The notes beneath the pieces are model-generated. The model saw only the letters and a program-made list of their open reading frames with translations. It was not told the origin of the DNA and searched no databases. From a virus: a stretch of DNA of 20,918 bases. The position numbers and the translations under genes were made by a program. Location of the stretch: the IMG/VR virus record IMGVR_UViG_3300027747_002908, positions 1 through 20,918 of that record. One strand, given 5' to 3'. Of the stretch, positions 365 to 20,863 are shown piece after piece; within the stretch, counting starts at the first letter, position 1, and each line of letters starts with the position of its first letter.

Positions 365-378
365 AAAATTAAATCCTT

Positions 379-406
379 TGTATACTACCGTATGGTTATA
401 TGTGAA
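379..406 (-). promoter_or_regulatory. Candidate sigma70-type promoter upstream of the edge glycosyltransferase
   Basis: On the minus strand, TTCACA (401-406) and TATACA (379-384) are separated by 16 bases, in the gap between the small conserved gene and the partial glycosyltransferase. The -35 matches consensus at five of six positions and the -10 at four. The predicted start falls next to the ribosome site, giving a short leader. It is read from sequence only and could be chance in AT-rich DNA. Confidence 0.35.
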
Positions 407-610: not shown

Positions 611-612
611 TA

Positions 613-1143: not shown

Positions 1144-1152
1144 AGTAATTTA

Positions 1153-2316: not shown

Positions 2317-2321
2317 AAAAT

Positions 2322-2468: not shown

Positions 2469-2470
2469 AA

Positions 2471-3310: not shown

Positions 3311-3326
3311 TGGTTACCTCGGTAGT

Positions 3327-3355
3327 ATTTTACAATGAATGAATGAGGAAGTCAA
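3327..3355 (-). promoter_or_regulatory. Strong sigma70-like promoter before the FkbM gene
   Basis: On the minus strand, TTGACT (3350-3355) and TAAAAT (3327-3332) are spaced by exactly 17 bases, each matching consensus at five of six positions. Transcription would start near 3320, at the GAGGT ribosome site, leaving a leader of about ten bases before GTG 3310. It lies in the 81-base gap between the GT90-like and FkbM genes, where nothing else is seen. The -35 context CTTGACTT is shared with the promoter at 5643-5670. Confidence 0.6.
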
Positions 3356-3391
3356 GGCGGGACAATAAATTACTGAAAAGAACTACTATAA

Positions 3392-4351: not shown

Positions 4352-4390
4352 TATCTTTTAGTTTGTTTTTAGATATTTAGTTTTTTTGAA

Positions 4391-4942
4391 TTACTTCTTG
4401 TAATTATAGATAAAGACAGTATATCTTCCCCAGATATCATCTATTAAATCGCTGATAAAATTCCAGTTTCCACCAGCTAGTCCACTACCAAATTTAGGAG
4501 CATGAATTTCAATATTTTCTGATTTGTTAGCGAAGCCAGTGTTATTCTGTATAAAAGAAGATAGCGTAATCATGCTCTTAACTAATGCAGCGTAGTTTAA
4601 TGGACGATTATTAGAATTGTTTCTGATGCCATTCTGAGAAATCATATTAACAAAATATAGTTTATGTCTATATTTTGAATCTTCTTTAACTTTTAAGATC
4701 TGAGAATGACCAAGATTATTTTTAAGAAAGGTTTTTCCCAATAAATGATAATTAGTCTTTACGTCTGGATAGTGATCGGCAGTCTGTGATGCAAAACCTG
4801 CACCAAACAAATCAATATTATTGCATACGTGTGGGACAAAAATTGTTGATCCCATGTGACCTGCAGATATTCTCTTCTCAATAGATTCGAATAAGTCATT
4901 ATTGGTTAGAATATAGCTATTTTTATTTGTTTTGGTTATCAT
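4391..4942 (-). CDS. Macro-domain protein (ADP-ribose-1''-phosphate phosphatase-like)
   Basis: This 183-residue protein is a single macro domain. FVPHVCNNIDLFGAGFA (35-51) corresponds to the first ligand loop, with the GAGF glycines. YFVNMISQNGI follows, then RPLNYAAL. IHAPKFGSGLAGGNW (146-160) is the second phosphate-binding loop. The layout recalls the Poa1p/Appr-1-p phosphatase branch more than the ADP-ribosyl-protein hydrolases. It may remove or bind ADP-ribose made by host defence or phage enzymes. The ATG is preceded by GGAG at ideal spacing and overlaps the end of the zinc-ribbon gene by 20 bases, so the two are coupled. A deoxyribosyltransferase-like gene lies in the same block. Confidence 0.85.
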   Translation of the reverse strand: MITKTNKNSYILTNNDLFESIEKRISAGHMGSTIFVPHVCNNIDLFGAGFASQTADHYPDVKTNYHLLGKTFLKNNLGHSQILKVKEDSKYRHKLYFVNMISQNGIRNNSNNRPLNYAALVKSMITLSSFIQNNTGFANKSENIEIHAPKFGSGLAGGNWNFISDLIDDIWGRYTVFIYNYKK

Positions 4943-5195
4943 TATTTGCTCCTATTTTGCCCCATTTCCCTATTGGACATTCTTGATCGGCCCATGCTAA
5001 TTTGTTTAGGAATCTTTTTTTTGTGTTTATATTACATCCGCAAATAGAACATTCTTTTTTGATCGAATTGAATTCCTCACACTGTTGGCAAATAGAGAAT
5101 CTTTGTAAAATTTCAGATTGGGTGCTTTTTGGAAACCCAGCCCATACGTGGAAAAACAAAGATTTAAGGAATATTTGAATTCTTAGAAAGATCAT
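4923..5195 (-). CDS. Small zinc-ribbon protein
   Basis: The 90-residue product has a C-x2-C pair (C36, C39), a C-x2-C-x-C cluster (C49, C52, C54) and a final CPIGKW (C73), spaced like a small treble of zinc-binding knuckles. The pattern RF.IC..C..F....C..CGC....K....W....CPIGKW is one I associate with short conserved phage proteins of unknown role. The first 20 residues are hydrophobic and aromatic. The gene overlaps the start of the upstream gene's end by 32 bases and the downstream macro-domain gene by 20, so all three are probably co-translated. A role in metal-dependent nucleic acid or protein binding is likely but not shown. Confidence 0.7.
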   Translation of the reverse strand: MIFLRIQIFLKSLFFHVWAGFPKSTQSEILQRFSICQQCEEFNSIKKECSICGCNINTKKRFLNKLAWADQECPIGKWGKIGANNDNQNK

Positions 5196-5418
5196 CTTTA
5201 ATTGTTTCTTTTATGGCTATAAGGTTATTATCTTTGTCTAAAGTAAAAAGTTGAACTTTATCTATTATAGTATTCCCTGATAGCCATCTGGATGATCCTG
5301 TTTTTAAATCTATACATAATCTATTACCATTAGACTTATGATCGCAAGTTACTACTAACTTACTATTGTCTAATATAAATGATTCACCATTATCTAATTC
5401 TTCAATATAGTTTGGCAT
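5164..5418 (-). CDS. Small conserved hypothetical protein, beta-rich
   Basis: The 84-residue product begins MPNYIEELDNGESFIL and alternates short strands and turns (LVVTCDHKSNGNRLCIDL, GSSRWLSG, VQLFTLDKDNNLIAI). This looks like a small beta-barrel, but I do not recognise the family. The ATG is two bases after the stop of the upstream gene (TAA-TT-ATG). The end overlaps the zinc-ribbon gene. No signal peptide or membrane segment is present. Confidence 0.65.
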   Translation of the reverse strand: MPNYIEELDNGESFILDNSKLVVTCDHKSNGNRLCIDLKTGSSRWLSGNTIIDKVQLFTLDKDNNLIAIKETIKDDLSKNSNIP

Positions 5419-5420
5419 AA

Positions 5421-5633
5421 TTATCTATTATAAAATCTCTCCCAATTTTCCCACTCTTCTTCGTCAATTTCTTGTTTTTTTTGTCTAAATTCTTGTTTTC
5501 TTTTTGATTCAGCAACTCTTTCTTCTTCTTGTTGCTTTTTATCCAAGAATTTCTTTTTATTTAGATTCTCTCTGCGAAAATCTTTTCGGTTTCCTGAGTC
5601 GTCTTTCATATTATTTTGAGTGTTTTGTGTCAT
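5421..5633 (-). CDS. Highly charged, helical small protein
   Basis: The 70-residue product is almost entirely Lys, Arg, Glu, Gln and Asn, with KKFLDKKQQEEERVAESKRK forming a predicted long helix or coiled coil, and ends EEEWENWERFYNR. It is the first gene of the minus-strand block that runs leftward, directly after a good promoter, which supports it being expressed. It could bind nucleic acid or a partner protein; no family is recognised. The 5' end has almost no leader, see the promoter entry. Confidence 0.6.
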   Translation of the reverse strand: MTQNTQNNMKDDSGNRKDFRRENLNKKKFLDKKQQEEERVAESKRKQEFRQKKQEIDEEEWENWERFYNR

Positions 5634-5642
5634 GTCTAACTT

Positions 5643-5670
5643 ATGATATCTCTAGCGATCACAAAGTCAA
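5643..5670 (-). promoter_or_regulatory. Sigma70-like promoter for the leftward block
   Basis: On the minus strand TTGACT (5665-5670) and TATCAT (5643-5648) are 16 bases apart, each five of six to consensus. Transcription would begin near 5636, only about three bases before the ATG at 5633, so the transcript would be nearly leaderless. The -35 box sits in CTTGACTT, as in the promoter at 3327-3355. Confidence 0.55.
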
Positions 5671-5773
5671 GAAAAAAAATAAAAATTTACCTCATTGCAA
5701 GCCTGAAGTAACCTAGTTAATATTATGCAGCCGGTGCAGATTATCTTATACCTTCTAGGGTTATATACACACA
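5671..5773. other. Divergent intergenic region between the two glycan blocks
   Basis: This stretch separates the leftward block from the rightward glycosyltransferase operon. It contains an A-rich run (5671-5690) and should hold the promoter of the rightward operon. TTGCAA near 5695 followed 17 bases later by TAATAT is a weak candidate, and TTATATAC just before the ATG at 5774 is another possible -10 element. I cannot choose between them. No ribosome site stands out before ATG 5774. Confidence 0.4.
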
Positions 5774-7018
5774 ATGTCCAATAAAATATTCGTTGAGTTA
5801 GCTTCGTATAGAGATCCACAATTGACTATCACCATTGATGATATGTTAAAGAAAGCTAAGGATCCTGAACAATTCACTTTCGGCATATGCTGGCAACATG
5901 ACGAGACAGAAGACATAAATAGATATGATAATGATTCTAGATTCAGGGTAAGCAAACATCATTATAATGAAAGTCAGGGGCTTGGGTGGGCAAGAGCGAT
6001 TACAAATACGCTTTATGATGGTGAGGCTCTTGTATTACAGTTAGATAGTCACCATAGATTCGATTATAACTGGGATCAAATGATGTTGGAGGATTTTAAT
6101 CAAGCAAAATCTTTATGCGAAAAACCTATTTTGACAACATATTTAACTCCATTTCAACCAGAACAAGAGAAATACGATCTAGCCCCATGCTTAATGAGTC
6201 AATATGAGTTTAGTTATGATAGTCTTTTAATGAGTAGACCATATTATATTGGAGACTATAAACAAAGATCAAAAGTAATAAGAGGCAGAACTATAAGTGG
6301 TCACTTTTTACTAGCTGAAAGCGAATTTATTAGTGATGTTCCTTATGATCCAGATATTTATTTTGGAGGATATACTGAAGAAACAACATTAAGTGTTCGT
6401 GCTTTTACTCACGGATATGATTTCTATAGTCCTTATAGACAATATATTTGGCATGAATATACTAGAAATAATAGACCAAAACACTGGGAAGATCACGGAA
6501 CTGTATCACAAACTAAAAAAACTAGTGGAGAAAGAGATATTTATGCTCGTAAAAAAACTCGTCAATTATTTGGACAAGAAGATCATGGCATAGATATGGG
6601 TATTTATGGATTAGGAAATAAGAGAACCCTACATGATTATGAAGTTTTTGGAGGATTTGACTTCAAAAAATGCAGAATACAAGATTATACATTACAGGTT
6701 AATGAGCCCCCTAATCCTAGTGATTGGGAAAATGGTTTTATCTCACATAAATATGATATAAATTGCGAGTGGGACACTGAGTTTTTTAAGAAGTTTAATG
6801 CTCAAAACCCCGACTTCCTAACATTCTCACTGCATAATAATTCTGGCAAAGAACTTTTTAGAAAAGACTTTAATATCTCAGATTCCCCAGAGTATGTTAA
6901 ATTAATCAATAATAGATATCTAGCTAGTTTTTATTCTCAAGATAAACCAGACAAAATTGTTATGTATCTTTTTGATAAAGATAAGCAATGGAGCGAAAGA
7001 TACGAGAAACAAATCTAA
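5774..7018 (+). CDS. GT60-like N-acetylglucosaminyltransferase (Skp1 GlcNAc-transferase family)
   Basis: The N-terminal two thirds match the GlcNAc-transferase family known from Skp1 hydroxyproline modification. IFVELASYRDPQL is the typical opening, FTFGICWQHD and GLGWARA follow, and LVLQLDSHHRF (87-96) holds the DXH metal site at D91 and H93. Further on, SGHFLLAESEFISDVPYDPDIYFGGYTEE and YIWHEYTRN complete the domain near residue 240. Residues 290-414 form an extra C-terminal domain, probably beta-rich, that I do not recognise and that could target the enzyme to its acceptor. Bacterial and phage members usually act on unknown acceptors. It is the first gene of the rightward operon. Confidence 0.85.
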   Translation: MSNKIFVELASYRDPQLTITIDDMLKKAKDPEQFTFGICWQHDETEDINRYDNDSRFRVSKHHYNESQGLGWARAITNTLYDGEALVLQLDSHHRFDYNWDQMMLEDFNQAKSLCEKPILTTYLTPFQPEQEKYDLAPCLMSQYEFSYDSLLMSRPYYIGDYKQRSKVIRGRTISGHFLLAESEFISDVPYDPDIYFGGYTEETTLSVRAFTHGYDFYSPYRQYIWHEYTRNNRPKHWEDHGTVSQTKKTSGERDIYARKKTRQLFGQEDHGIDMGIYGLGNKRTLHDYEVFGGFDFKKCRIQDYTLQVNEPPNPSDWENGFISHKYDINCEWDTEFFKKFNAQNPDFLTFSLHNNSGKELFRKDFNISDSPEYVKLINNRYLASFYSQDKPDKIVMYLFDKDKQWSERYEKQI

Positions 7019-7033
7019 CAATAGGTTTATAAT

Positions 7034-8215
7034 ATGAGAATCGCATTTGTTTTAATAGGTAATAGCAGAAGAAGTAATTATCTCAATGGAGATACTCTAA
7101 GATATGGAGGAGGAGGCGGCTCGGGGACTGACACTAGTACTATTTTAGTAGCAGAGTATCTTGCGTCACAAGGACACGATGTGGTAATAGCCACAGACAA
7201 ACTAGAGCCTGCATTAGAACAAAAATATGCATATGAAGGTAAGTTTTTTCCTAAAGGAGATAAAATAAGAGGAGTACAATATACTGATATAGAATTTAAC
7301 TATATCGAAAATAAAGAATTTGATATCCTTGTAAATAGCTTATGGTTTCAAGACTATAAAAGTCTTCCAATTAAAATAACAAAAGCTATTGTATACTGGT
7401 GTCACATGCAATGGATATATGGCATAGGAGAAGCAATAGAATATTGTAAAACTAATAATCTAAATCTTGGATTTGTTAATATATCAAATTGGGAAAGTCA
7501 AATGAATGACGGAACTATAAAACACGCATCTGCGATATATAATAAGACATATAGGACACTAATTCCTAATCCTATTGCTGATGATATTATAACACAAGTA
7601 TTGAATGAAAATATAGAGAAAAAACCACACAAATTTATCTTCCATGCCTCTTGGCCAAGAGGAGGAAATGTAGCGCTTGAAGCTGTCAGAAGATTAGATT
7701 TTCAAGATAAAGAATTTCATGCTTTTGATTATTTAATGGTTATTCATGATCATAAAGATATGTTCTTTCATATGCATAATGGGGTTGATAAGTATACTCT
7801 CTTCAAACACTTAGCCGAAAGTGAGTATTTTGTTTATCCTTTATATACTCCTTACCAAGATGTTCATAAAGATACGTTTTCCTGTGTTGTTGCTGAAGCA
7901 TTGGCCTTGGGTGTTATTCCAATAACATATCCTCTAGGTGCCTTACCTGATATTTTTGGAGAGTATTGTGCATGGATAGATTTTCCAAAGGACAAAAATG
8001 CAGAGACGATGCAAAAAGAATCACTCTCAAAAGATCTAGAAGGTTCTTTTAGAGATAATATAGATAATATTGTTAATAAAATATTATTCTTAGAATCTAA
8101 TCCAGATATTAAAAATAGCCTTCGTCTGAAAAGTAAAGACTTCGTTATGGATTCTTTCAGTGTAAATAAAGTTGGACAAATGTGGAGTAATTTTTTCTTT
8201 GAATTAAGTAATTAA
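7034..8215 (+). CDS. GT-B fold glycosyltransferase (GT4-like)
   Basis: The 393-residue product starts MRIAFVLIG and has a glycine-rich loop GGGGGSGTDTSTILVAEYL (25-43), typical of the N-terminal acceptor half of GT-B enzymes. The C-terminal half has FHASWPRGGNVALEAV (203-218), replacing the more common RxxxxKG donor loop, then LAESEYFVYPL and DTFSCVVAEALALGVIPI (280-297), where the EALALG segment matches the E-x7-E donor-binding region of GT4. It lies 15 bases after the GT60-like gene in the same operon. Sugar and linkage are unknown. Confidence 0.8.
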   Translation: MRIAFVLIGNSRRSNYLNGDTLRYGGGGGSGTDTSTILVAEYLASQGHDVVIATDKLEPALEQKYAYEGKFFPKGDKIRGVQYTDIEFNYIENKEFDILVNSLWFQDYKSLPIKITKAIVYWCHMQWIYGIGEAIEYCKTNNLNLGFVNISNWESQMNDGTIKHASAIYNKTYRTLIPNPIADDIITQVLNENIEKKPHKFIFHASWPRGGNVALEAVRRLDFQDKEFHAFDYLMVIHDHKDMFFHMHNGVDKYTLFKHLAESEYFVYPLYTPYQDVHKDTFSCVVAEALALGVIPITYPLGALPDIFGEYCAWIDFPKDKNAETMQKESLSKDLEGSFRDNIDNIVNKILFLESNPDIKNSLRLKSKDFVMDSFSVNKVGQMWSNFFFELSN

Positions 8216-8222
8216 TACTATT

Positions 8223-8933
8223 ATGGAAAAACTATTTGATTTTGTAGATGAAGCATTCTATATTAATCTAGATCATAGGACAGATAAAAATAAGATACTA
8301 ATAGATCATTTTACTGAAATAGGAATAAATAGATTTGTCAAAAGATCAAGAGGAATTTATCCACACGAGTTAGGTTATCAGTTAAGAGAAGAGACAAACA
8401 CCTATCCTCATGAAGCATACGCCAGAGGATGCACATATGCACAAATTGCTATTATAGAATACGCTAAACAAAAAAAACTGAATAATATTCTATACTTTGA
8501 AGATGATGCCAAATTTTATACGGATGGAGGATATGATCCATTACACATTATTAATACGGCTATACAAGGATTAAAAAATATACCAGATTGGCAAATTCTA
8601 TATTTAGGAACAAATCCTGGAGATAGAGATACCTATTTAAATATGGTAGCCCCCAATTTAGTTAAAATAAATGAGTCTATAGCTAATCACGCCGTATTGC
8701 TAAATCATACTATTTTTGATTCTATTCTAGAAAAAGCTAAAGAAAAAGATTTCAATCACCTTGATTCTCATTTTTCTAGTGCCTTTACAGAAAAATATAT
8801 GGTGTATCCATTATGTGTAAGTCAAAGATGTGGTTTAGAAAATGATATTGGAGATATTAAATATACTGGTATGTGTGATGATTTCTGGTTAGATAGATAC
8901 AAAAAAGAAATAAGGACACTATATGAAAATTAG
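8223..8933 (+). CDS. GT25 family glycosyltransferase, copy 1
   Basis: AFYINLDHRTDKN (11-23) and ILYFEDDAKF (89-98) are the two hallmark segments of family 25 (lipooligosaccharide galactosyltransferase-like), with the EDD at 93-95. The protein has 236 residues, close to the usual length. GCTYAQIAIIEYAK corresponds to the G.xGC..SH helix of the family, with Ala-Gln in place of Ser-His. It starts seven bases after the previous gene, and its last 11 bases overlap the next gene, another GT25. Residues 150-236 differ from the second copy, so the two probably use different acceptors. Confidence 0.85.
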   Translation: MEKLFDFVDEAFYINLDHRTDKNKILIDHFTEIGINRFVKRSRGIYPHELGYQLREETNTYPHEAYARGCTYAQIAIIEYAKQKKLNNILYFEDDAKFYTDGGYDPLHIINTAIQGLKNIPDWQILYLGTNPGDRDTYLNMVAPNLVKINESIANHAVLLNHTIFDSILEKAKEKDFNHLDSHFSSAFTEKYMVYPLCVSQRCGLENDIGDIKYTGMCDDFWLDRYKKEIRTLYEN

Positions 8934-9603
8934 TGATTTTTTTGAAAAAGGATATTATGTCAATCTTGACAAAAGACCAGAAAGAAAAGAATGCTTTCTT
9001 AATGATATGTCAAAAGTCGGTCTCGAATCATTTTTTGAAAGATTTCCGGCTTTCTATCATGGAGATAAGTCTGATTTTAATTATTTAACTACACATCAGG
9101 CTTGTGGAAGAAGTTTAGTTACAGTTATTAAAAAAGCATATGATTTAGGATACAACAATGTTCTAGTATTTGAAGATGATGCTTATTTTTTAGATGATAC
9201 ATTGGAATATGTTGAAAGTTCACTAGATACACTTTCTAATATCAATGATTGGCATATGATTTATTTAGGTGGAATGTTACTAGATCATGAACTTAATTTA
9301 GTTGGTAAGAATCTATTAAAACAAAATAATCTATTAACTACTCATGCTATAGGATACAGTAGAGAAGGTATGAAAAAAGTTATAGAGGGATGGAGATGGA
9401 ACGAAGGTGGAGGAGCAGCAATTGACGGTTGGTTTGCTGGAGAAGTACATTATGGCATTCCTTATTTTACCAAATACGTCACCTATCCACTAGCTGTAGT
9501 TCAATATGAGCATAGACCTAGCGATCTAAACGGTGGAGTATCTGCTGGTTTGGAAGACTATACTAGGGGCTATATAAATAAACCAATTAATAAGCTATAT
9601 TAA
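8923..9603 (+). CDS. GT25 family glycosyltransferase, copy 2
   Basis: The 226-residue protein shows YYVNLDKRPERK (11-22) and VLVFEDDAYF (80-89), with the EDD at 84-86, and THQACGRSLVTVIKKA in the conserved middle helix. It is a paralogue of the gene just upstream and of the N-terminal half of the fusion protein at 1153-2316. The start lies inside the end of copy 1 (11-base overlap beginning TATATGAAAATTAG). The C-terminal part has a Gly- and Trp-rich segment (GWRWNEGGGAAIDGWFAG) not seen in copy 1. It likely extends the same glycan. Confidence 0.85.
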   Translation: MKISDFFEKGYYVNLDKRPERKECFLNDMSKVGLESFFERFPAFYHGDKSDFNYLTTHQACGRSLVTVIKKAYDLGYNNVLVFEDDAYFLDDTLEYVESSLDTLSNINDWHMIYLGGMLLDHELNLVGKNLLKQNNLLTTHAIGYSREGMKKVIEGWRWNEGGGAAIDGWFAGEVHYGIPYFTKYVTYPLAVVQYEHRPSDLNGGVSAGLEDYTRGYINKPINKLY

Positions 9604-9619
9604 TATAAAGTATAAATTT

Positions 9620-10336
9620 ATGAAACATATAATCGTATCATTTTATAATGACGTATTGCCTCCAGATATAGCAGAATTGCAGAGAAAAATTTTTAATCAT
9701 TTTGATATAGAGTTTGAGCAATATAAATTTCCTGTAGGTGTTCAACACGACACTGCAATAGATAATTATTTAACAAATATTATAGATAAGACATGGGACT
9801 TTGTATCTATTTTCGATGTTGACTGTATTCCATTAAATCGCAATGTTATTGCGAATGCTCTAAAAAAAATAGAAAATGGTAATACTCTCTATGGAAATGT
9901 TCAATGTACTCATAGCTTAGAAGAAAATACTATTAAATCTCCTCCATATGTCGGTCCTATGTTTTGTAATTTTAGTCGCAAGGTTTATGAAGAAGCTAGG
10001 CATAAATCTTTTGGCTATAATGTTTATCCTAATCCGGATGGACATATTTTAGAAGCTGATGTAGGAGAAGTTTTTACTAGAGAAAATGAAAAAAGAGGAG
10101 TAAATGTAATATACTCTTATCCTACAAAAATAAATAAATCAGGGTGGAATAAACCAACAATTTGGAATTACGATGGTAGTTTTGGCTATCCCAAATTTGG
10201 CTGGGGTTGGGGAACAGAATATGATAGTGATACATATCATAACTTCCAAATAAGAATTTCAGAAAAACTATTTGACAATATTAGTCCACAAGAACTTTTT
10301 AGAGAATACTGCAATAGCATACTATATGGAAAATAA
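9620..10336 (+). CDS. Putative GT-A glycosyltransferase with DXD motif
   Basis: The 238-residue protein starts MKHIIVSFYND and has WDFVSIFDVDCIPLN around residue 59-73, where DVD (66-68) is a good DXD metal site. VQCTHSLEENT, then YVGPMFCNFSR and HILEADVGEVF, look like substrate loops. I do not recognise the family, but position within a glycosyltransferase operon and the fold-like order support the call. Its last 11 bases overlap the fucosyltransferase start. Confidence 0.6.
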   Translation: MKHIIVSFYNDVLPPDIAELQRKIFNHFDIEFEQYKFPVGVQHDTAIDNYLTNIIDKTWDFVSIFDVDCIPLNRNVIANALKKIENGNTLYGNVQCTHSLEENTIKSPPYVGPMFCNFSRKVYEEARHKSFGYNVYPNPDGHILEADVGEVFTRENEKRGVNVIYSYPTKINKSGWNKPTIWNYDGSFGYPKFGWGWGTEYDSDTYHNFQIRISEKLFDNISPQELFREYCNSILYGK

Positions 10337-11174
10337 TTTATCTAAAAATTTTATAACAAGCTCTTTAGTAGGAAGACTTGGAAATTTAATGTTTCAAATA
10401 GCTCATGGATATTCTCAAGCCATTACTCATCAAAGAGACTATTTATATCCTCTTATTGGAACCGACGTTATTCAGTTCAAAGATAGTGTATTTAGAAATA
10501 TTAATTTTTTTAATGGCACTATAGATGATTTAAGAAAAAAATATGATACAGTATCTGTTGAGTCTACTTTTCATTATACTCCTATTTATCCAGCAGATAA
10601 TAAAGTTACTATTTTTTCTGGATACTATCAGAGTGAAAAATATTTTCAAAAAAATAAACAACAAATTAAAAAACTTTTTTCTCCTACTCAAGAATTTATA
10701 GATAAATGCTTAATAGATTATCCAGAACTACAATCAAATAATGTTACCGCTATCAATGTCAGAAGAGGAGAAGACTACTTATCTCAACCAGAAAATCATC
10801 CAGTTGTTACAGAAGAATTTATCTATAAAGCATTAGAATATATTCCAAATAAAGAATATGTATATATCATAAGCGATAATCTTCCTTGGTGTAAAGAATT
10901 TCTTCATATAGATAATGTAAAATTTGTAGAATACACAGAACTTCGTGCTTTATGGCTTCTTAGTTTGTGTAAAAATTTTATTATTTCAAACTCCACATTC
11001 TCTTGGTGGGGTGCATTTTTAGGACAAAAAGAGGGAAGCATTACAGTAGCTCCCAGCACATGGTTTGGCCCAGGAGTTCATAGTAGAGGTCATTATGAAA
11101 GAGATATTTATCTAGATGAATGGATCCAAATTCCAACCAAATGGAATAATGGTTTTATAGAATTAGCTGACTAA
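10326..11174 (+). CDS. GT11 fucosyltransferase (alpha-1,2-type)
   Basis: I take ATG 10326, giving 282 residues (MENNLSKNFITSSLVGRLGN), rather than an upstream start at 10272 that would overlap the previous gene by 65 bases. The chosen start makes an 11-base overlap, just like the GT25 pair. SLVGRLGNLMFQIAHGYSQA is the N-terminal GT11 motif, FSGYYQSEKYF follows, NVRRGEDY (144-151) is the GDP-fucose-binding HxRRxDY motif with Asn in place of His, and ISNSTFSWWGA (220-230) is the C-terminal signature. It should transfer fucose from GDP-fucose. GDP-fucose synthesis genes are not in this window, so the donor would come from the host or elsewhere. Confidence 0.9.
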   Translation: MENNLSKNFITSSLVGRLGNLMFQIAHGYSQAITHQRDYLYPLIGTDVIQFKDSVFRNINFFNGTIDDLRKKYDTVSVESTFHYTPIYPADNKVTIFSGYYQSEKYFQKNKQQIKKLFSPTQEFIDKCLIDYPELQSNNVTAINVRRGEDYLSQPENHPVVTEEFIYKALEYIPNKEYVYIISDNLPWCKEFLHIDNVKFVEYTELRALWLLSLCKNFIISNSTFSWWGAFLGQKEGSITVAPSTWFGPGVHSRGHYERDIYLDEWIQIPTKWNNGFIELAD

Positions 11175-11176
11175 TG

Positions 11177-12265
11177 TTAATTATTATACTCTTTATATTT
11201 ATGTAATGATGATCCTATTATCTGGTGCATATCATAGTATTTATACTCTGCTAATCTTCCACCAAATATAAATTTTGAACCATGATTTATCTTCTTGTAT
11301 TTTTCATATAACTCATTATTTTTAGAATTATTTATTGGATAGAATCTATCAAGGGTCACAGACCAGTCCTGACTATATTCTTTTGTAATAATAGTATTAT
11401 CATTAGATCTATTTGAAAAATGCTTGTGCTCTACTATCCTTGTAAATGGAACCTTCTCATCTGTGTAGTTGACTATAGCATTTCCCTGAAAGTCACAATT
11501 TGCTATTGATGTTGTTTCAAATCTCAAACTACGATAGTCTAATATTCCAAATTCATAATCATAGAACTCATCAATCGCCCCAGTATAAACTATTGTCTTA
11601 GCTAGACTATTCCAATATTCTCTATTTTTTAGGTAATCGTTCTCTAATAATATCTCTATCCCATCAGTCATATTGTGCATCATATCAGAGTATCCGTTCA
11701 ATGGGATTCCTTGATATTTATCATTAAAATAATTATCGTCAAAATTCAATCGTATTGGGAGTCTTTTGATAATAAATGTTGGTAGATTTTTAGGGTCTGT
11801 ATTCCATTGTTTCTTTGTATATCCATATATGAATTTATGATATATCTCCTCCCCTACCTGACTCAATATCCATTCTTCAAGATTTATTGGATTATTGATT
11901 TTTATTTTTTCTTTTTCAAGCCTATCTTTTGCTTCACTTGGTGTTGTAACACCCCATAATTGATATAGCGTGAATAAATTGACTGGAAATGAATAAATTT
12001 TTCCATCATAATTTACTTTTGGTCTATTAATATAGCTATTAAATTCCGTAAACTGATTTATGTATTGCCATACCATCTCACTAGAAGTATGAAATATATG
12101 GGGTCCATATTTATGCACGTCTATCCCACCCACTCTTTCTGTATAACAATTTCCAAATGGATGTTTTCTTTTCTCAATAATCATACAAGATTTTTTATTC
12201 TTTTTGGCCTGTTCAGCAAAACAACATCCGAATAATCCTGATCCTACTATTAAATAATCTATCAT
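11177..12265 (-). CDS. glf: UDP-galactopyranose mutase
   Basis: The 362-residue protein starts with DYLIVGSGLFGCCFAEQAKK, an FAD-binding GxGxxG loop, and continues with IEKRKHPFGNCYTE, VHKYGPHIFHTS, NRPKVNYDGKIYSFPVNL, FIYGYTKKQWNTDPKNLP and GIPLNGYSDMM, all characteristic of Glf. It converts UDP-galactopyranose to UDP-galactofuranose using reduced FAD. Length is near the usual 370-390. It converges on the fucosyltransferase, with only two bases between the stop codons. Its presence implies galactofuranose in the glycan built by the surrounding transferases. A specific galactofuranosyltransferase is not obvious in the window. Confidence 0.93.
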   Translation of the reverse strand: MIDYLIVGSGLFGCCFAEQAKKNKKSCMIIEKRKHPFGNCYTERVGGIDVHKYGPHIFHTSSEMVWQYINQFTEFNSYINRPKVNYDGKIYSFPVNLFTLYQLWGVTTPSEAKDRLEKEKIKINNPINLEEWILSQVGEEIYHKFIYGYTKKQWNTDPKNLPTFIIKRLPIRLNFDDNYFNDKYQGIPLNGYSDMMHNMTDGIEILLENDYLKNREYWNSLAKTIVYTGAIDEFYDYEFGILDYRSLRFETTSIANCDFQGNAIVNYTDEKVPFTRIVEHKHFSNRSNDNTIITKEYSQDWSVTLDRFYPINNSKNNELYEKYKKINHGSKFIFGGRLAEYKYYDMHQIIGSSLHKYKEYNN

Positions 12266-12392: not shown

Positions 12393-12689
12393 ATGTATAA
12401 AATTTTGCTGACTCTATTAATGTTCTTGACTATGACAACAGCTTATTCTCAACAGCATACAATATCGAAAACTGAGTATGGTAATCCTTTTTCAGATTTC
12501 AATCCTTTTGACACCAGATACTACTATCCTGGATTCGCTTTACCAAATGATTTTGATCCTATTCCAGATACTCCTCGTAATAGAAAAATGTATCCTGGAC
12601 TATTTGAGTTGCATGACTGGCAAATGATGCAGTTAAGACAGCGTGAACAAAAACTAAATCAGCATAAGCGCATATCTAACAGATTCTAA
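12393..12689 (+). CDS. Small secreted protein with signal peptide
   Basis: I take ATG 12393, with AAAGGAA seven bases upstream; the frame is also open from a GTG at 12360 but that start has no ribosome site. The 98-residue product opens MYKILLTLLMFLTMTTAYSQQ, a signal peptide likely cut after AYS. The mature part is rich in Pro, Tyr, Asp and Phe (NPFDTRYYYPGFALPND) and ends in a basic, Gln-rich helix (MMQLRQREQKLNQHKR). No family is recognised. It is a lone rightward gene between glf and the protease pair, and its last 14 bases overlap the end of the subtilisin gene on the other strand. Confidence 0.65.
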   Translation: MYKILLTLLMFLTMTTAYSQQHTISKTEYGNPFSDFNPFDTRYYYPGFALPNDFDPIPDTPRNRKMYPGLFELHDWQMMQLRQREQKLNQHKRISNRF

Positions 12690-13599
12690 AATTTAGAATC
12701 CCATATCCTTGATATCTTTTTGATCTGAAACTAGGATTTGCAATATTATTGCACATAGACCCTAATACTTTAAGATAGTCATCTTTATTATTTAGTGTGT
12801 ATTTTTTTGTTTGTCTATTGAAAGACAAAAGAAGAGCAGCACACCCAACAACGAATGGACTACTCATACTTGTACCAGACATTATAGCATAAGAGTCATT
12901 GGGAACACAACTCAGTATATTATGTCCCGGAGCAAGAAAATCCAAGCTTTCTCCACTACAACTAAAATTTGTACGATTTAAATTTTCGTCTATTGCTGCT
13001 GTGCTTATTGTTTCTTCATATCTAGCTGGGTACATGATCTCTGAATCTGGACCAGAATTTCCAGCAGCACAGAAGATTATTACTCCTTTAGAAGAAGCAT
13101 ATCTGACTGCTTCTTCGATTGCTTTTGAGTTTTGTGGTGATCCTAAAGACATAGAAATAAAATCTGCACGATTATCTGCTGCCCACACTATACCCTTCAC
13201 TACGTCATTTAAATTTCCATTCCCCTTATCGTTTAGTGATTTAATTGGTATAATTTTTGCTTTTGGTGCCACTCCAACCATTCCTAAACCATTATTCGTT
13301 GCTGCTATGGTTCCAGCAGTGTGCGTGCCGTGACCGGAACGATCAACAGGGTCTTTTCCTGGCTCCACAAAATTTATACCTTGTAAAAGATTATCTTTAA
13401 TATCTGGATGGTCCAAATCACATCCAGTATCTATTACCGCAATCCTTACGCCTTCTCCATTAGAACATTTCCATTGAGATTGTATATTAAATTTTTTAAT
13501 TTCCCATCCTAATACTTGAGGATCTTTGGGAGATAGCCCAAACACATCTTCTCTAATATATGGCAACAGACTACATTCATTTTTATTCCTTCTCTTCAT
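12676..13599 (-). CDS. Subtilisin-like serine protease (S8), no signal peptide
   Basis: All three catalytic residues are present in family context: D57 in VRIAVIDTGC, H90 in SGHGTHTAG, and S244 in SGTSMSSP, with the oxyanion Asn N181 in CAAGNSG. At 307 residues it is a compact catalytic domain with a short N-terminal extension (about 45 residues) and no signal peptide or long propeptide, so it resembles the intracellular subtilisins. It should act in the cytoplasm or be carried in the virion. Its start overlaps the end of the trypsin-like gene by 17 bases, making a coupled two-protease unit. Several Cys residues (C44, C60, C214, C231) are unusual for a secreted subtilisin. Confidence 0.93.
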   Translation of the reverse strand: MKRRNKNECSLLPYIREDVFGLSPKDPQVLGWEIKKFNIQSQWKCSNGEGVRIAVIDTGCDLDHPDIKDNLLQGINFVEPGKDPVDRSGHGTHTAGTIAATNNGLGMVGVAPKAKIIPIKSLNDKGNGNLNDVVKGIVWAADNRADFISMSLGSPQNSKAIEEAVRYASSKGVIIFCAAGNSGPDSEIMYPARYEETISTAAIDENLNRTNFSCSGESLDFLAPGHNILSCVPNDSYAIMSGTSMSSPFVVGCAALLLSFNRQTKKYTLNNKDDYLKVLGSMCNNIANPSFRSKRYQGYGILNFRIC

Positions 13600-14341
13600 T
13601 ACAACTCTCCATTGTTTCTCTTATCCATTTTATATATGTACTAACTCTACTATGACAACTTTGATCTGTATATGTTCCATTAGGTTTTCCATCTTTAGCC
13701 ATCACAGAAGAATGGATACCGGCGAGCTTTCCATCTATAAAAAGACCACCCCCACTGTCACCACTAGCAATTAAAAACTCAAGCTCTGTGAACTTCTCTT
13801 GCCTTCTAGATGGAGAGCAAACGAGTACATTACGTTGTATTGAATCGATATAATTTGAACCACCCCTACGTTTTTTATCACTCGTATTTGCACCAGTATT
13901 AAAATCCCCAGTATTACCCCATCCTGCCATACAGCATATCTTACCAATCTCATCACTAGATTCATACAATTCAGGATACTTATCAAATGCAAATGCTTTT
14001 TCACTATACCCTAAAGCAATATCATAATATCCAAATACATCTGTTTTATAATTTGGATTTAAAAATACTTTAGATAACTCATATGTTTCTTCTTTGATTG
14101 TGACTGTCCATGTTTGACAATTATCGACAACATGTGCAGCAGTTATAATCCAATGAGAATCAATAATAACGGCTGATCCACAAGATAATCCTACGCCATC
14201 AAAACAACAGAGCTTCACGGTATGCTCAAATTTTTCTCCATATTCTAAATATTTAGAATCTGGAGTATTTGGATCAATCGTACCAGCAAAAGATAAAGAA
14301 ACAAAGAGAAAGATGCCCATAATTAAAGTGAGTATTTTCAT
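13583..14341 (-). CDS. Exported trypsin-like serine protease (S1)
   Basis: A signal peptide (MKILTLIMGIFLFVSLSFAG, cleavage near residue 19) precedes a chymotrypsin-fold domain. The triad is H70 in IITAAHVV, D107 in YYDIALGY, and S196 in SGDSGGGLF. Cys pairs C45-C46, C54, C75, C136-C137, C175, C229 and C248 suggest a disulfide-bonded, extracytoplasmic enzyme; the usual Cys before GDSGG is missing (IASGDSGG). The residue six before the active serine, the specificity pocket base, falls at E190/F189 in LEFLIASGDS, so trypsin-type Lys/Arg specificity is not assured. AAGGAG lies at ideal distance before ATG 14341. It is the first gene of the protease pair. Confidence 0.92.
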   Translation of the reverse strand: MKILTLIMGIFLFVSLSFAGTIDPNTPDSKYLEYGEKFEHTVKLCCFDGVGLSCGSAVIIDSHWIITAAHVVDNCQTWTVTIKEETYELSKVFLNPNYKTDVFGYYDIALGYSEKAFAFDKYPELYESSDEIGKICCMAGWGNTGDFNTGANTSDKKRRGGSNYIDSIQRNVLVCSPSRRQEKFTELEFLIASGDSGGGLFIDGKLAGIHSSVMAKDGKPNGTYTDQSCHSRVSTYIKWIRETMESCNEEKE

Positions 14342-14683: not shown

Positions 14684-15685
14684 TCATAACACCTTTGCTG
14701 CAATTAAGCATCCTTTTGCTACCGCATGTAAAGGGTCTGCCGCGTGCTTGACAGTCTTAATAGTTAATGGAAATCCGTTCTCTTGAAGTTTTGATGCAAA
14801 TAATTCGATATATCCATTAGCTTGTGAAGTCCCTCCAGCAACTACTACTGTTATGGGATCTTTAAATTTTGGTAATGATTTATGATTTGTAAGAGCAGCA
14901 CTTAGTTGCTTTGTAGTATAATCTATCAATCTTTCATAATATGCTGAGACAGCGCCAAGAATAGGATTATCATTTGGTTGACCAATAGTAAATCCTCCAT
15001 TCTCTTTTTCGGCTTGAACAACACTGTCTGGTTCTCCAGTAGCTACAGAACTCATTCTATCAATCCAGTCACCACTCTTTGTTGTACTAAATACTACAGT
15101 CGGTTCACCATTCAGCATTACACAAACATTAGTCATACCAGCACCACAGCTTACAGCTATTCCAGTATAATCAGTGTCCTCTAACTCAGCATAGCACAAA
15201 GCCTCTGCTTCATTTATTGCTCTAGCAGAATATCCACATTCGCCCAAAATAGTCTTGACTATATCTTCATGATAACCAACATCAAAATCTTCATCTTCTT
15301 GATCAACAGGTTGTGCTGGAATACAGAATACTAATTTCTCATTTTCTTCTGTGGCTTGTCCTACTACTTCTTTTAAGATAAAGGCTAAAATACGTTTAGC
15401 ATCTTTTTCTTTAGCAGAAACAACGCCTTTATACATCGGTCTTTTTGCTGTGTCATTTCTTTCGATTGCTTTCTCTATTGCATCCTTCCCTAAGAGGATA
15501 AATGCTCCATCACTATCTTTAATAAAAACTTTTCCAGCTAATCCTTTTTCAATCATTTTTGTGGCTACTGGAGTTGTTGGTTTAATGATATAAAATGCGT
15601 CTCTAAAATCTTTATAGACTATATTTTTACCAGAATCTCTAGATAAGACAATATAACTTGTACCAACATCAAGACCACAACCCAT
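14684..15685 (-). CDS. Actin-like ATPase (ParM/MreB/Hsp70 superfamily)
   Basis: GLDVGTS (4-10) is the phosphate-1 loop, IAVSCGAGMTNVCVM (176-190) is a variant phosphate-2 loop, and VVVAGGTSQANG (280-291) is the adenosine loop, spaced as in ParM-like filaments. INEAEALCYAE (158-168) is the connecting segment before phosphate 2. The length of 333 is normal. It could form a filament that positions or segregates phage DNA. A strong AGAGGTGA ribosome site stands before the ATG. The gene three bases upstream encodes a membrane-anchored coiled-coil protein, a plausible tether. The phosphate-2 loop has SCGAGMTN in place of the usual DxGxGTT, so ATP hydrolysis may be altered. Confidence 0.85.
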   Translation of the reverse strand: MGCGLDVGTSYIVLSRDSGKNIVYKDFRDAFYIIKPTTPVATKMIEKGLAGKVFIKDSDGAFILLGKDAIEKAIERNDTAKRPMYKGVVSAKEKDAKRILAFILKEVVGQATEENEKLVFCIPAQPVDQEDEDFDVGYHEDIVKTILGECGYSARAINEAEALCYAELEDTDYTGIAVSCGAGMTNVCVMLNGEPTVVFSTTKSGDWIDRMSSVATGEPDSVVQAEKENGGFTIGQPNDNPILGAVSAYYERLIDYTTKQLSAALTNHKSLPKFKDPITVVVAGGTSQANGYIELFASKLQENGFPLTIKTVKHAADPLHAVAKGCLIAAKVL

Positions 15686-15688: not shown

Positions 15689-16021
15689 TCACCTCTTCAT
15701 ATTCTTAAGTTTATTGATTGAATCACTAATATCCTCAGTTGACTGTTTAATTTCTCCTAAGTTCTCATATTTTTTTTCGAGATTATCAGTCTTTATTTCT
15801 GTGACAAATTTAGTATCATTAATTACTATTTTTGTCTTTTCTTCCTTATTATTATCAAAAAAATTAGTCGGTTTACTTAAACCATTAGTATTAGATACAC
15901 CGCAGCTTGCTTGTTTTCCAATAAAATAGCCGATAAAAAACAAACACACCCCTATTGCTAGGAGTGTGATTGAGAAGAGAATTATTGTTGGAGTATTTAT
16001 TATTAGTGATATTTCATTCAT
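15689..16021 (-). CDS. Single-pass membrane protein with coiled-coil tail
   Basis: The 110-residue protein has a strong transmembrane segment (TIILFSITLLAIGVCLFFIG, residues 12-31) near the N-terminus, a short polar stretch, and a helical, charged C-terminal half (TDNLEKKYENLGEIKQSTED) likely to form a coiled coil in the cytoplasm. No family is recognised. It overlaps the end of ruvB by eight bases (ATGAATGA) and lies three bases before the actin-like gene. That order suggests it links the filament to the membrane, as an inference. Confidence 0.65.
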   Translation of the reverse strand: MNEISLIINTPTIILFSITLLAIGVCLFFIGYFIGKQASCGVSNTNGLSKPTNFFDNNKEEKTKIVINDTKFVTEIKTDNLEKKYENLGEIKQSTEDISDSINKLKNMKR

Positions 16022-16931
16022 TTTTATATGAGCCTATAACCCTTCCCTTTTGAGTTCTTACAACAAAACCCTTTCTAACAAGATAAGGCTCTATACTATT
16101 TTCAATGGTCTCTATAGCAATACCAGTCAATGATGAAATACTTTTAAGACCTAATGCAGAACCTTTGTTCTTTAATAGAACTGTTAAATACATCTTATCA
16201 TACACGTCTAGCCCGTCTTTATCAATCCCCTGATTAACAAAAATATCATCAACACTGAGCTTCCTATCTGTATAATAAGCAACACAGTTCTTATACCATT
16301 GTAGTCTACCATTTAAAATTCTAGGTGTTCCCTTGCTCCTTTTGGCAATTTCTAATAAATCCTCATCGCTTATCATTAGTCCAAGCTTTTCAGCATTCAA
16401 CCTTGCAAGTTTAGCTAGTTCAATCTCATTATAGAACGACAGATGCTCTTTAATTTGAAATCTATCATAAAATGGTTGACTTAAAGAACCGCCACTAGTT
16501 GTTGCTCCTACAATTGTGAACATAGGAAGTTCGATAGTTTCTGGTTTTTCTTTATCATCATCATCTTTGATTGTGATATTCAGAACAAAATCTTCCATCA
16601 CAGGATAGAGAAATTCTTCTACAATTTTTGGAAGCCTATGAATTTCGTCAATAAACAATACTGACCTTGGTTCGATACCCATAATATATGGTAGAATATT
16701 TTTGATACTACGGACTCCTGCTCCGTTGATAGTATATAGATTCACACCCATCTCTGTTGCTATAGCACTAGCAATGGTGGTCTTTCCTAGCCCCGGTGGG
16801 CCGTCTATTAAAACATGAGGCATCACGCCAGCAGAGTTTTTACAACCGGCCACAATGATGCCTAGTCTTGTTATAACTTCCGACTGACCAGTAATTTCAC
16901 TAAAACGAGTAGGTCTAATTGTATTAGCCAT
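16014..16931 (-). CDS. ruvB: RuvB-like Holliday-junction branch-migration ATPase
   Basis: I choose ATG 16931, which has GGAG seven bases upstream and gives 305 residues; a TTG at 16943 is in frame but has no ribosome site of its own. IRPTRFSEITGQ, the Walker A loop GPPGLGKT (44-51), Walker B VLFIDEIH (91-98), sensor 1 GATT (142-145) and sensor 2 KGTPRI match RuvB closely. The C-terminal winged helix (ALGLKSISSLTGIAIETIEN, then EPYLVRKGFVVRT) is also present, so all three RuvB domains are complete. A change worth noting: the PLRDRF motif that carries the arginine finger region reads PFYDRF, losing its first Arg. The upstream gene, overlapping by eight bases, encodes a RuvA domain III-like partner. 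Confidence 0.93.
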   Translation of the reverse strand: MANTIRPTRFSEITGQSEVITRLGIIVAGCKNSAGVMPHVLIDGPPGLGKTTIASAIATEMGVNLYTINGAGVRSIKNILPYIMGIEPRSVLFIDEIHRLPKIVEEFLYPVMEDFVLNITIKDDDDKEKPETIELPMFTIVGATTSGGSLSQPFYDRFQIKEHLSFYNEIELAKLARLNAEKLGLMISDEDLLEIAKRSKGTPRILNGRLQWYKNCVAYYTDRKLSVDDIFVNQGIDKDGLDVYDKMYLTVLLKNKGSALGLKSISSLTGIAIETIENSIEPYLVRKGFVVRTQKGRVIGSYKNE

Positions 16932-17334
16932 TTTTTTCTCCAAAGTTAGATAACGAAAATTTTATTAGAGTAGAACAATCCAAGCTTTTACAAGTAATAT
17001 AGGCTTTTTTAATCAAATCCTGTGCTTCTTGCTTAGAAAAACCATAAGAAAATAATGCCTTACAACAAGTTTCTAGTATTTTTGGATCAATTTCCTGATC
17101 TTTATTACTGTTTGACTTGATATTAGTGGTATTTTTTTTCTTCTTGTAAAGAATTTTTACATCCTCTACTACCTTTGGTTTTAAAATAGTATTACAGTCA
17201 CAGACTATGATAAATTTATCATACTGTGCTTGATTGAGTCTAACCCAATGAGTAGTAGAACAGGTAGGACAAGTATACCCCAGCGTCAGGTCTAAGTCAA
17301 TTGGTCTCAGGTTTTTGATTTTGTTTGCTATCAT
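16924..17334 (-). CDS. Zinc-finger protein with RuvA domain III-like C-terminus
   Basis: The N-terminal 50 residues carry CPTC (C22, C25) and CDC (C45, C47), a likely zinc knuckle. A Lys/Asn-rich linker (62-79) follows. Residues 84-131 read ILETCCKALFSYGFSKQEAQ, then DLIKKAY, and a final CSTLIKFSLSNF. This has the A-L--LGY--QEA----K and LI--AL pattern of RuvA domain III, the small three-helix domain that binds RuvB. RuvA domains I and II, which bind the junction, are missing, so the zinc finger may do DNA binding instead. The stop overlaps the ruvB ATG (ATGGCTAA), the strongest context support. It is a recognition by eye and needs a profile search. Confidence 0.6.
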   Translation of the reverse strand: MIANKIKNLRPIDLDLTLGYTCPTCSTTHWVRLNQAQYDKFIIVCDCNTILKPKVVEDVKILYKKKKNTTNIKSNSNKDQEIDPKILETCCKALFSYGFSKQEAQDLIKKAYITCKSLDCSTLIKFSLSNFGEKNG

Positions 17335-17740
17335 CTTCTTCTTTCACCCAAAAGATAAAATCATTTTGATCAGTATCAAATGCACTATCCAATATTCCTT
17401 TATTAACTAAAGCATTCAGAATATTACTAACCATTCTACTATTAAGATCTTCTATAATTATTTGAAGAACATTGTCATTTAAACAATATCTTGTTTCTTT
17501 CGTTTTCTTATTTATTTGTTTTCTTGCATGATTTTTTATGATTACCGCTGATTCATCACGGGTTAATGTATCATCCATCTCTGAGAGTTCTTCCTTTGTT
17601 AGCATCGCCAATGAAGAAGATAATGGATCATTAGCCATCTCATTACTTACTCCAAAAAACTTAAAGACTAAAGACCTAGCATGATCAACAAAATCATCAA
17701 AATCTTTTATAAGAAACCACTGTTCATTGTCCTGATTCAT
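17297..17740 (-). CDS. Hypothetical protein, possible winged-helix
   Basis: The 147-residue product is helical and acidic, with LTKEELSEMDDTLTRDESAV in the middle and VSNILNALVNKGILDSAFDT near the C-terminus, which looks like a helix-turn-helix or winged-helix read-head, followed by NDFIFWVKEED. I do not recognise the family. It overlaps the previous gene by four bases (ATGA) and the next by 38, so it belongs to the replication operon. Confidence 0.6.
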   Translation of the reverse strand: MNQDNEQWFLIKDFDDFVDHARSLVFKFFGVSNEMANDPLSSSLAMLTKEELSEMDDTLTRDESAVIIKNHARKQINKKTKETRYCLNDNVLQIIIEDLNSRMVSNILNALVNKGILDSAFDTDQNDFIFWVKEEDDSKQNQKPETN

Positions 17741-18659: not shown

Positions 18660-19796
18660 TTATCCTATACAAAATTTATCACTGATCTTAGACGCTAGTT
18701 CTTTGGCAGCATTAGACAAGAATCTGTTGTTGCTAAAGTAGAGAGGCGTTGAGACTTGATTAAGGAACTCCACGACCGTTTTTAAAAGCTTGGTCTGGGA
18801 ACCGTCAAGATCTAAATCCTCGCCTCCAGCGTCAACAGGAAGCGAATCAAGAGAGTCTGTATCGTCCTCACTAACAGGAGATACTGGCACGGGATCACCA
18901 TAAGCTTTTTGAAAAACTGTACTCTTAGTATGAACATAAACAGGCTTACAATAATCTGAACTATTATAGTCTTTAGGATTTGATGCTCTCATCTGATTTG
19001 CAATCGTTGCAGCAACATTAACTGATACTGGAACTCCACTAACATCAGACCTCTTATAAGCCTTGGAATATTCCTTAAACCATTCATCACTAGTCTTATT
19101 AGCAACAAGATTAACAACAGCAGAAACACCATCAAGAGCTTGTTTAAGATGCTCAATATTTACAGGATTGCCAGTTGATCCCGACAGAATACTTGTAAAG
19201 TAAGACTGCTTTCCTTCCCAGCCTTTTCTCCACCAAGTATATGGGATACGATAAATCTGATTAATCTTGATAGCTCGGGCATCACCCTCAAAATAGTTTA
19301 CCAATTTCTTTTGAATACCATTCCAATAAGTCTTATGAGGACTATTTGTATTATGATCCAGAATCCAATAGCACTGATAACCATTACGAGTATCAATAAC
19401 CCAGCTTGGCTTTACGGGAAAACTATTGATCTTAGCTAAAAACTCTTTCTTCTTTGTCATAACAATGCTAGGCTTAAAGTAACTACCGTTAGCATCTCGT
19501 CCAGCATCCATATCAACGAAACAAGCACGAATCCTGCTAATAGCATATTGTTTGCGTCCACCATTAACATAGAAGTAAGCATCAGCACCTTGACTATCGT
19601 TTGCAATAGCAACAGTAGTAAGATTGTCCGTATGATTCATACTACTGATCTTCTTACGAGGATCACCATTATAGCAAAAAATCTGCTGACTACCCAAAGA
19701 CTCAAAAAACTTATTTCGTAAAGTAATCTGATCTCTTGTTCCAATAGCACTATGAGTCTTATCGAACGGATTAAAAGCCAAAGTATCGCTAAACAT
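18660..19796 (-). CDS. Archaeo-eukaryotic-type primase (RepB/phage primase-like)
   Basis: Residues 85-200 resemble the AEP catalytic domain: ISRIRACFVDMDAG holds the metal-binding DMD (95-97), WVIDTRNGYQCYWIL (132-146) is the second motif, EGDARAI (170-176) supplies a further acid, and IYRIPYTWWRKG (181-192) is the family's third motif. In many members the second motif has His; here that position is Gln (Q141), so activity could be modified. A Ser/Asp-rich linker (300-335) joins a short C-terminal helical domain that could bind a helicase. The 378-residue length suits a stand-alone primase. AAGGAAA precedes ATG 19796. It probably primes phage DNA replication. Confidence 0.75.
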   Translation of the reverse strand: MFSDTLAFNPFDKTHSAIGTRDQITLRNKFFESLGSQQIFCYNGDPRKKISSMNHTDNLTTVAIANDSQGADAYFYVNGGRKQYAISRIRACFVDMDAGRDANGSYFKPSIVMTKKKEFLAKINSFPVKPSWVIDTRNGYQCYWILDHNTNSPHKTYWNGIQKKLVNYFEGDARAIKINQIYRIPYTWWRKGWEGKQSYFTSILSGSTGNPVNIEHLKQALDGVSAVVNLVANKTSDEWFKEYSKAYKRSDVSGVPVSVNVAATIANQMRASNPKDYNSSDYCKPVYVHTKSTVFQKAYGDPVPVSPVSEDDTDSLDSLPVDAGGEDLDLDGSQTKLLKTVVEFLNQVSTPLYFSNNRFLSNAAKELASKISDKFCIG

Positions 19797-19966: not shown

Positions 19967-20863
19967 TTACTTATAGAAACCGTTGCTCCCATCTTCATCA
20001 TCCATCTCATCTTCTTCGTCACTATCAAGATCGTCCTCATCTTCATCTTCATCGTCAAACTGATCCCAATAGTTCTCATCATAATCATTCAGATAATCAT
20101 CCTCATCATCTTCGTAATCATCTTCACTGAAATTGGCCTTGTAAAGAGGCTTGAGCAATTCGCCCTCATACTGTCCAACTACCTCATAACGACAAGTGCG
20201 AAGCTTTTCACAATTAGAATCGCTTGGAACACTGACTACATCCTTGGGATTGATCTTAACGATCACGATACGGTCTCCAGCTTCCAGACTACCATAGTTA
20301 GCAACATAATTCAATGCTCCAGCATGAAGCCCATTAGAACAACCACGACCACGATCATCGTCAACCTTTGCTCTTTGCATTTCGCAAACCTGACCAACGC
20401 GGTTGTCAAAAACTCCTCTATACTTATCCTTAAAGTCTGAACGAACAGCCTTATAAGCGAGAAAGAAACCATCCTCAGTAATGGGAAGATGCTCATGCTC
20501 CAAGAAATCATACAGTTCCTTCTGACTCTGCATACTTGGATTTTCCATGATATTATTCAGGAAATTAACAAGGGGCTGAAAAGGCAATCCCTTGCTCATA
20601 AACTCTAGAATACGCTTACTAATACTACCATGAACTTCCTCACCCTCGTAGAGAACTTGTCCATTCTTGATCTCCACAAGACCATCGCTAAAAGTAGCAA
20701 CAGCTTTCTGAACATCAACAACTTCCAGTAGTTCATCTGCCGTAGCAGTAGGAAGTCTTTCCAGAATCAACTTATAGTTGATATGATCTGGCAACACCTG
20801 ATAACTCTGATTATTAAGAACCAGCGTCAAATTACCATCCACAAACATAAACGGAACAGCCAT
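19967..20863 (-). CDS. rIIB: rIIB-like protein
   Basis: The core FQPLVNFLNNIMENPSMQSQ...ELYDFLEHEHLPITEDGFFL (95-134), YKAVR.DFKDKYRG, NRVGQV, then CSNGLHAGALNYV (175-187) and DRIVIVKINPKDVVSVPSD with KLRTCRYEVVG match T4 rIIB and its homologues. T4 rIIB works with rIIA in membrane-associated lysis control and exclusion by lambda rex; its chemistry is not known. No rIIA is seen, though it could lie beyond 20918. Residues 247-291 form an extreme Asp/Glu tail, not typical of T4 rIIB. AGGAG stands before the ATG. The gene looks richer in G+C than the left half of the window. Confidence 0.88.
   Translation of the reverse strand: MAVPFMFVDGNLTLVLNNQSYQVLPDHINYKLILERLPTATADELLEVVDVQKAVATFSDGLVEIKNGQVLYEGEEVHGSISKRILEFMSKGLPFQPLVNFLNNIMENPSMQSQKELYDFLEHEHLPITEDGFFLAYKAVRSDFKDKYRGVFDNRVGQVCEMQRAKVDDDRGRGCSNGLHAGALNYVANYGSLEAGDRIVIVKINPKDVVSVPSDSNCEKLRTCRYEVVGQYEGELLKPLYKANFSEDDYEDDEDDYLNDYDENYWDQFDDEDEDEDDLDSDEEDEMDDEDGSNGFYK

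Follow-up and report, generated by a model that had tools for sequence, protein, structure and literature searches.

In the textbook RuvAB system of bacteria, junction recognition and motor regulation are fused in a single protein, RuvA, which acts as a tetramer. Domain III of cellular RuvA binds RuvB at a site made up of the presensor-1 hairpin and helix alpha3, keeps the motor tethered, and favours both the hydrolysis of ATP and the exchange of nucleotide (PMC9477746; PMC10272136). On the motor side, replacing either the arginine finger or the wing arginines with alanine leaves P. aeruginosa RuvAB unable to carry out branch migration (PMC10071043). The stand-alone resolvases of phages, such as T4 endonuclease VII and phage RuvC, have been described without a RuvB-like ATPase, and in a survey of 224 jumbo phages RuvC was uncoupled from any ATPase of this kind (PMC7824862); the argument from rarity that accompanied the initial annotation of a phage RuvB at the present locus still stands. 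We found no phage RuvB with a RuvA-like adaptor among the open-access papers searched, and closed journals may hold an earlier description.

The locus lies in IMG/VR virus record IMGVR_UViG_3300027747_002908, of which positions 1 to 20,918 were analysed; this whole stretch of 20,918 nucleotides is what we call the window. The genes of interest form a minus-strand run, given here from rIIB at its upstream end to an actin homologue at its downstream end, together with the features that lie within them:

19967-20863, minus strand: rIIB
18660-19796, minus strand: weakly primase-like protein
Between the primase-like protein and the 147-aa protein, minus strand: small proteins
17297-17740, minus strand: conserved neighbour of 147 aa, its gene overlapping the adaptor gene by 38 bases
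16924-17334, minus strand: adaptor of 136 aa, with a zinc ribbon, a flexible linker and a RuvA domain III-like tail
17149-17313, minus strand: zinc-ribbon head of the adaptor (residues 8-62), CxxC...CxC, with invariant P11, Y20 and W30
16933-17091, minus strand: three-helix tail of the adaptor (residues 82-134), RuvA domain III-like
16938-16941, minus strand: GGAG, the ribosome-binding motif of the RuvB gene, lying within the adaptor gene at its 3' end and read from the sequence
16014-16931, minus strand: RuvB of 305 aa, ATG start, with AAA+ large and lid domains and a RuvB_C winged helix
16524-16586, minus strand: presensor-1 hairpin stretch of RuvB, placed by alignment to E. coli RuvB
Between RuvB and the Volactin gene, minus strand: small probable membrane protein
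14684-15685, minus strand: Volactin-family actin homologue (PF25216, E=7e-64)

Judged by its sequence, the product of 16014-16931 is what it had been called at the outset, a complete and genuine RuvB with all motor motifs. The Pfam models RuvB_N (1e-45), RuvB_C (3e-17) and AAA_lid_4 all match above cut-off, the NCBIfam equivalog NF000868 gives 293.1 bits against a cut-off of 282, and solved RuvB structures align with the protein end to end (phmmer, E=9e-65); the older and stricter model TIGR00635 places it at 269, under a cut-off of 299. An alternative, TTG-started reading frame extends to 16943. Walker A, Walker B, the arginine finger (DRF), sensor 2 (GTPRI) and the wing (RTQKGR) are kept, and across 61 distinct phage RuvBs aligned to E. 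coli RuvB the Walker motifs, DRF, GTPRI and the wing RTxKGR are retained with few exceptions. For the presensor-1 hairpin we number positions on what we take to be the E. coli RuvB sequence, which agrees with an E. coli-like PDB chain over the compared stretch. The position equivalent to I150 is kept in the window protein and that equivalent to I148 is a Glu; in the phage RuvBs at large Glu or some other polar residue predominates at the latter, and most of the other hydrophobic hairpin positions are present.

The adaptor and RuvB genes share eight bases (16924-16931), just as first annotated. The RuvB ATG at 16931 and the GGAG motif that precedes it within the adaptor gene make translational coupling of the two probable. 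The last 48 residues of the adaptor had been proposed to be a RuvA domain III; the identity holds, and the domain runs slightly longer, over about residues 82-134. Searches with the single sequence are weakly suggestive: Pfam RuvA_C is matched at E=0.0099, below its gathering cut-off, and the only NCBIfam match is TIGR00084 (ruvA), at E=0.001 over model positions 136-201 of 202, where the whole adaptor reaches 18.7 bits, the cut-off being 85. Five of 39 family members match RuvA_C at E up to 0.1. A profile of the 39 homologues, run against all PDB sequences, places first 1ixs_A (E=2.3e-4), which is Thermus RuvA domain III co-crystallised with RuvB, and second 1ixr_A (E=1.2e-3), the full Thermus RuvA; five further RuvA chains are among its 14 matches, and the Thermus domain is matched over 53 residues without a gap. 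A profile of the tail alone gives this domain 23.3 bits, compared with a best score of 7.6 in 5000 shuffles of it. The AlphaFold2 model of the adaptor (mean pLDDT 84) has helices at 84-95, 101-115 and 120-135, and its best PDB matches by Foldseek are again RuvA chains, with a probability of 0.99 and an rmsd of 1.2 A over 47 residues, and a TM-score of 0.76 to 1ixs_A by the length of that chain; the Foldseek E-values for these chains are about 0.5-1, and the structure match supports the assignment without deciding it. Against predicted viral structures the model found no convincing match. On the family profile, the shuffle control and the AlphaFold2 structure match together, we regard the tail firmly as a RuvA domain III.

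RuvA domains I and II are absent from the adaptor and a zinc ribbon stands in their place, in agreement with the CxxC...CxC zinc module initially annotated. Among the 39 homologues the ligands C22-x2-C25 and C45-x-C47 are invariant, a few members carrying C-x4-C as the first pair, and P11, Y20, W30 and V44 are invariant as well. AlphaFold2 draws a ribbon, a beta hairpin bearing two Cys knuckles, with pLDDT above 90 over most of its length, and the weaker PDB matches of the head in this model are ribosomal zinc ribbons; the head would accordingly be expected to bind zinc. Its mean net charge over the family is about +6, the basic N-terminus counted, it is better conserved than the tail (mean information of 2.57 against 1.95 bits), and the linker between the two varies from 6 to 61 residues. 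A basic, better-conserved head on a variable linker fits the expectation for a flexibly tethered targeting module. While the protein shares its C-terminal domain III with the RuvA family (TIGR00084, PF07499), it has neither the N-terminal OB domain nor the helix-hairpin-helix domain II, and since these junction-binding domains are missing we do not file it as a RuvA. The pair as a whole resembles bacterial RuvAB in joining a RuvB equivalog with all motor motifs to a domain III partner on a flexible linker, encoded by adjacent genes, and differs from it in having the zinc ribbon instead of domains I-II and hence no known tetrameric junction clamp.

The same gene pair was found in other phages. 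A scan of IMG/VR with RuvB gave 193 relatives, of which 80 were kept, and a separate adaptor scan, with a pattern from a 10-row subset of the 39-row alignment, gave 160, of which 80 were kept. In every one of the 79 adaptor loci with enough flank in the set examined (kept loci plus one genome hit), a RuvB lies directly downstream, its start falling -4 to +20 bases from the end of the matched adaptor stretch. The pair is carried by a large group of uncultured lake phages, which is jumbo-sized, given that member contigs reach 230-244 kb. A search of annotated phage records with the adaptor returned no match at E up to 1. The only match in the genome collection is L146 (RFVO01000059.1), a phage-like contig assigned to the bin of a Chitinophagia (Bacteroidota) MAG, and this bin membership is a weak hint at the host of the group. 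Both genes are under purifying selection, judging by the pairs divergent enough for dN/dS to be estimated: values lie at about 0.1-0.5 for the adaptor and at 0.02-0.1 for RuvB.

The view that the adaptor is dedicated to RuvB is right in one direction, in that RuvB lies downstream of it in all 79 testable loci, and does not hold in the other: 13 of the 61 distinct RuvB genes have no adjoining adaptor, and four adaptor-less contigs of 113-230 kb have no adaptor match anywhere, although such absences are provisional in contigs that may be incomplete. The 230-kb relative G002 showed no hidden match to domain III or to the zinc head, and at L066, checked for a frameshifted adaptor, only the upstream gene was seen. 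On the RuvB tree, parsimony places about nine changes in adaptor presence, at least four of them forced by well-supported branches. The adaptor has been lost several times independently and, with RuvB kept where it is gone, is not strictly essential. The RuvB hairpin is unchanged in the adaptor-less phages, with no erosion seen, and may therefore still be bound by some partner, perhaps the RuvA of the host. Loci L005, L008, L009 and L012 are among those in which the adaptor is cleanly lost and RuvB and its hairpin are retained.

Profile searches over 20 relatives of 93-238 kb supply the genomic context. RecA is present in 18 of the 20 and endonuclease VII in 14, the gene for the latter adjoining a DNA ligase gene in the genomes read through. 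These phages are in this respect like those with stand-alone resolvases, and unlike them in having a RuvB. Unlike the bacterial RuvABC resolvasome, they showed no RuvC: PF02075 matched nothing in the 20 relatives (the control was positive in 8 of 14 genomes). Nor was RuvA_N detected in the 20, and so no full RuvA was found elsewhere in them. One relative genome that was read through encodes DnaB together with a Toprim primase, SSB, ligase and a polymerase III alpha split around an apparent proofreading exonuclease, the exonuclease and SSB having been recognised from sequence by eye. In relative G002 (L119:12124-16528) polymerase III alpha is split into a PHP and catalytic part and a fingers-HhH-OB part, with an apparent proofreading exonuclease gene between the two. 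A T4-like replisome was considered and rejected in view of the DnaB, Toprim primase and split polymerase III of bacterial type that the relatives carry.

Among the neighbours in the window, the 147-aa protein adjoins the adaptor or RuvB in the examined loci and carries an invariant SN..L..L...D....DF.FW-like pattern; its AlphaFold2 model is winged-helix-like (pTM 0.71), with weak MarR-like fold matches at a probability of 0.5 or less, and it is a possible third component of the pair. Volactin is a cell-shape actin of Haloferax. The phage gene is conserved at about 87% in the large relatives, only two huge uncultured phages (LR745208 and LR756511) have it among annotated phage records, and its product may position phage DNA. 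At 12676-14341, also on the minus strand, a subtilase-like protease gene adjoins a trypsin-like one with a signal-like N-terminus, and both protease families are present in relatives as well. Positions 1-12265 hold a large block of glycosyltransferase-, methyltransferase- and UDP-galactopyranose-mutase-like genes, recognised by eye, which suggests elaborate sugar modification by the phage.

We propose, with a probability of roughly 0.55, that the phages encode a reduced RuvAB motor in which a zinc ribbon replaces the junction-binding domains and which works together with an endonuclease-VII-type resolvase. RuvB would be the usual hexameric DNA translocase. The adaptor would dock through its domain III on the RuvB presensor-1 hairpin, as RuvA does, a step well supported by homology, and once docked it would tether the ring and stimulate or time its ATP cycle. 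The basic zinc ribbon on its flexible linker, in place of the tetrameric RuvA clamp, would deliver the motor to its target. The likeliest substrate would be branched or single-stranded DNA arising from the phage's own RecA-driven recombination and replication, and the junctions would finally be cut by the endonuclease-VII-type enzyme. The domains, the gene pairing, the lack of RuvA domain I and RuvC in the relatives and the co-occurrence of RecA and endonuclease VII genes are observed; docking, stimulation of the ATPase, binding of DNA through the zinc head and branch migration as the output are what we infer. The completeness of RuvB, arginine finger and wing included, counts for this proposal, as do the domain III identity of the tail, the basic and better-conserved zinc head on its variable linker, the 79/79 pairing, the purifying selection and a genomic context with RecA, endonuclease VII and replication genes and with neither RuvC nor RuvA_N found; the docking step draws on what is known of RuvA domain III, which binds RuvB at the hairpin and alpha3 and stimulates its hydrolysis of ATP. 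Counting against it are the several losses of the adaptor with the RuvB hairpin retained, which show that the adaptor is not strictly needed and that host RuvA might substitute; the mostly polar residue at the I148 equivalent; the tetrameric working form of RuvA, of which the adaptor gives no sign here; and the endonuclease-VII fold itself, which occurs in homing nucleases too. More tentatively, the adaptor may represent an undescribed class of RuvB loading factor, a domain III carried on a zinc ribbon, whose target is something other than a free Holliday junction, for example a stalled phage fork, a D-loop or a replisome protein.

The main rival, which we consider unlikely, agrees that domain III docks on RuvB and has the zinc head target a protein, be it the replisome, RNA polymerase, SSB or the packaging machinery, with RuvB acting as a general duplex translocase away from Holliday junctions. 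The lack of RuvA junction-binding domains in the 20 large relatives would suit this, and so would the invariant Trp and the fixed non-ligand residues of the head, as in a protein-binding surface, and the constant presence of the winged-helix-like conserved gene next door. Zinc-finger partners of eukaryotic RuvB-like proteins are reported (ZNHIT2 with RUVBL1/2, PMC5460035), and the likeness of a small zinc protein paired with a RuvB-like ATPase is a functional analogy only: the zinc domain of the ZNHIT proteins is of another kind, they lack a RuvA domain III, and we claim no homology. Yet the strongly basic head and the RecA and endonuclease VII context fit DNA recombination at least as well.

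It is improbable that the adaptor is mainly a host decoy, its domain III competing with host RuvA for host RuvB and so disabling junction processing. RuvA and RuvB do hetero-complement across species (PMC9477746), and several lineages do without the adaptor, as is common for genes directed at the host; but it sits directly upstream of the phage RuvB gene, usually overlapping it, in all 79 testable loci, a coupling that a decoy would not need, and a decoy would also poison the phage's own motor.

The clamp-loading function that had been entertained as an alternative to branch migration is disfavoured, and we judge it very improbable that RuvB and the adaptor replace the T4 gp44/62 or DnaX complex. 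The idea was attractive at first, since RuvB is the sole AAA+ protein matched by phrog_168, a phage clamp-loader family, in 20 of 20 large relatives, and their polymerase III would normally use a clamp. It was dropped because no sliding clamp was detected in the 20 relatives, either of the DnaN type (no PF00712 match) or of the T4 type (no PF02916 match above cut-off), and because RuvB keeps the DNA-gripping RuvB_C wing, which clamp loaders lack, having a collar domain instead; RuvB families also outscore clamp-loader families by far. That the domain III likeness is a chance match to a UBA-like three-helix fold, the adaptor being an unrelated small zinc protein beside RuvB, is hardly credible, for while the single-sequence scores lie under curated cut-offs, it is contradicted alike by the profile, the shuffle control, the structure match and the presence of RuvB as an obligate neighbour.

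Under the reduced RuvAB reading, evolution appears to have split the functions of RuvA, keeping the motor and its regulator and swapping the recogniser, and this makes testable the long-standing question of whether domain III alone is enough to load and drive RuvB and whether the head alone sets the substrate. Jumbo-sized phages, previously thought to use resolvases without RuvB, would also be seen to have a junction pathway based on it, and the adaptor would be a small natural means of retargeting a DNA translocase. Should the loading-factor reading prove true, RuvB would be a modular motor, and exchanging the head carried on domain III would change its specificity.
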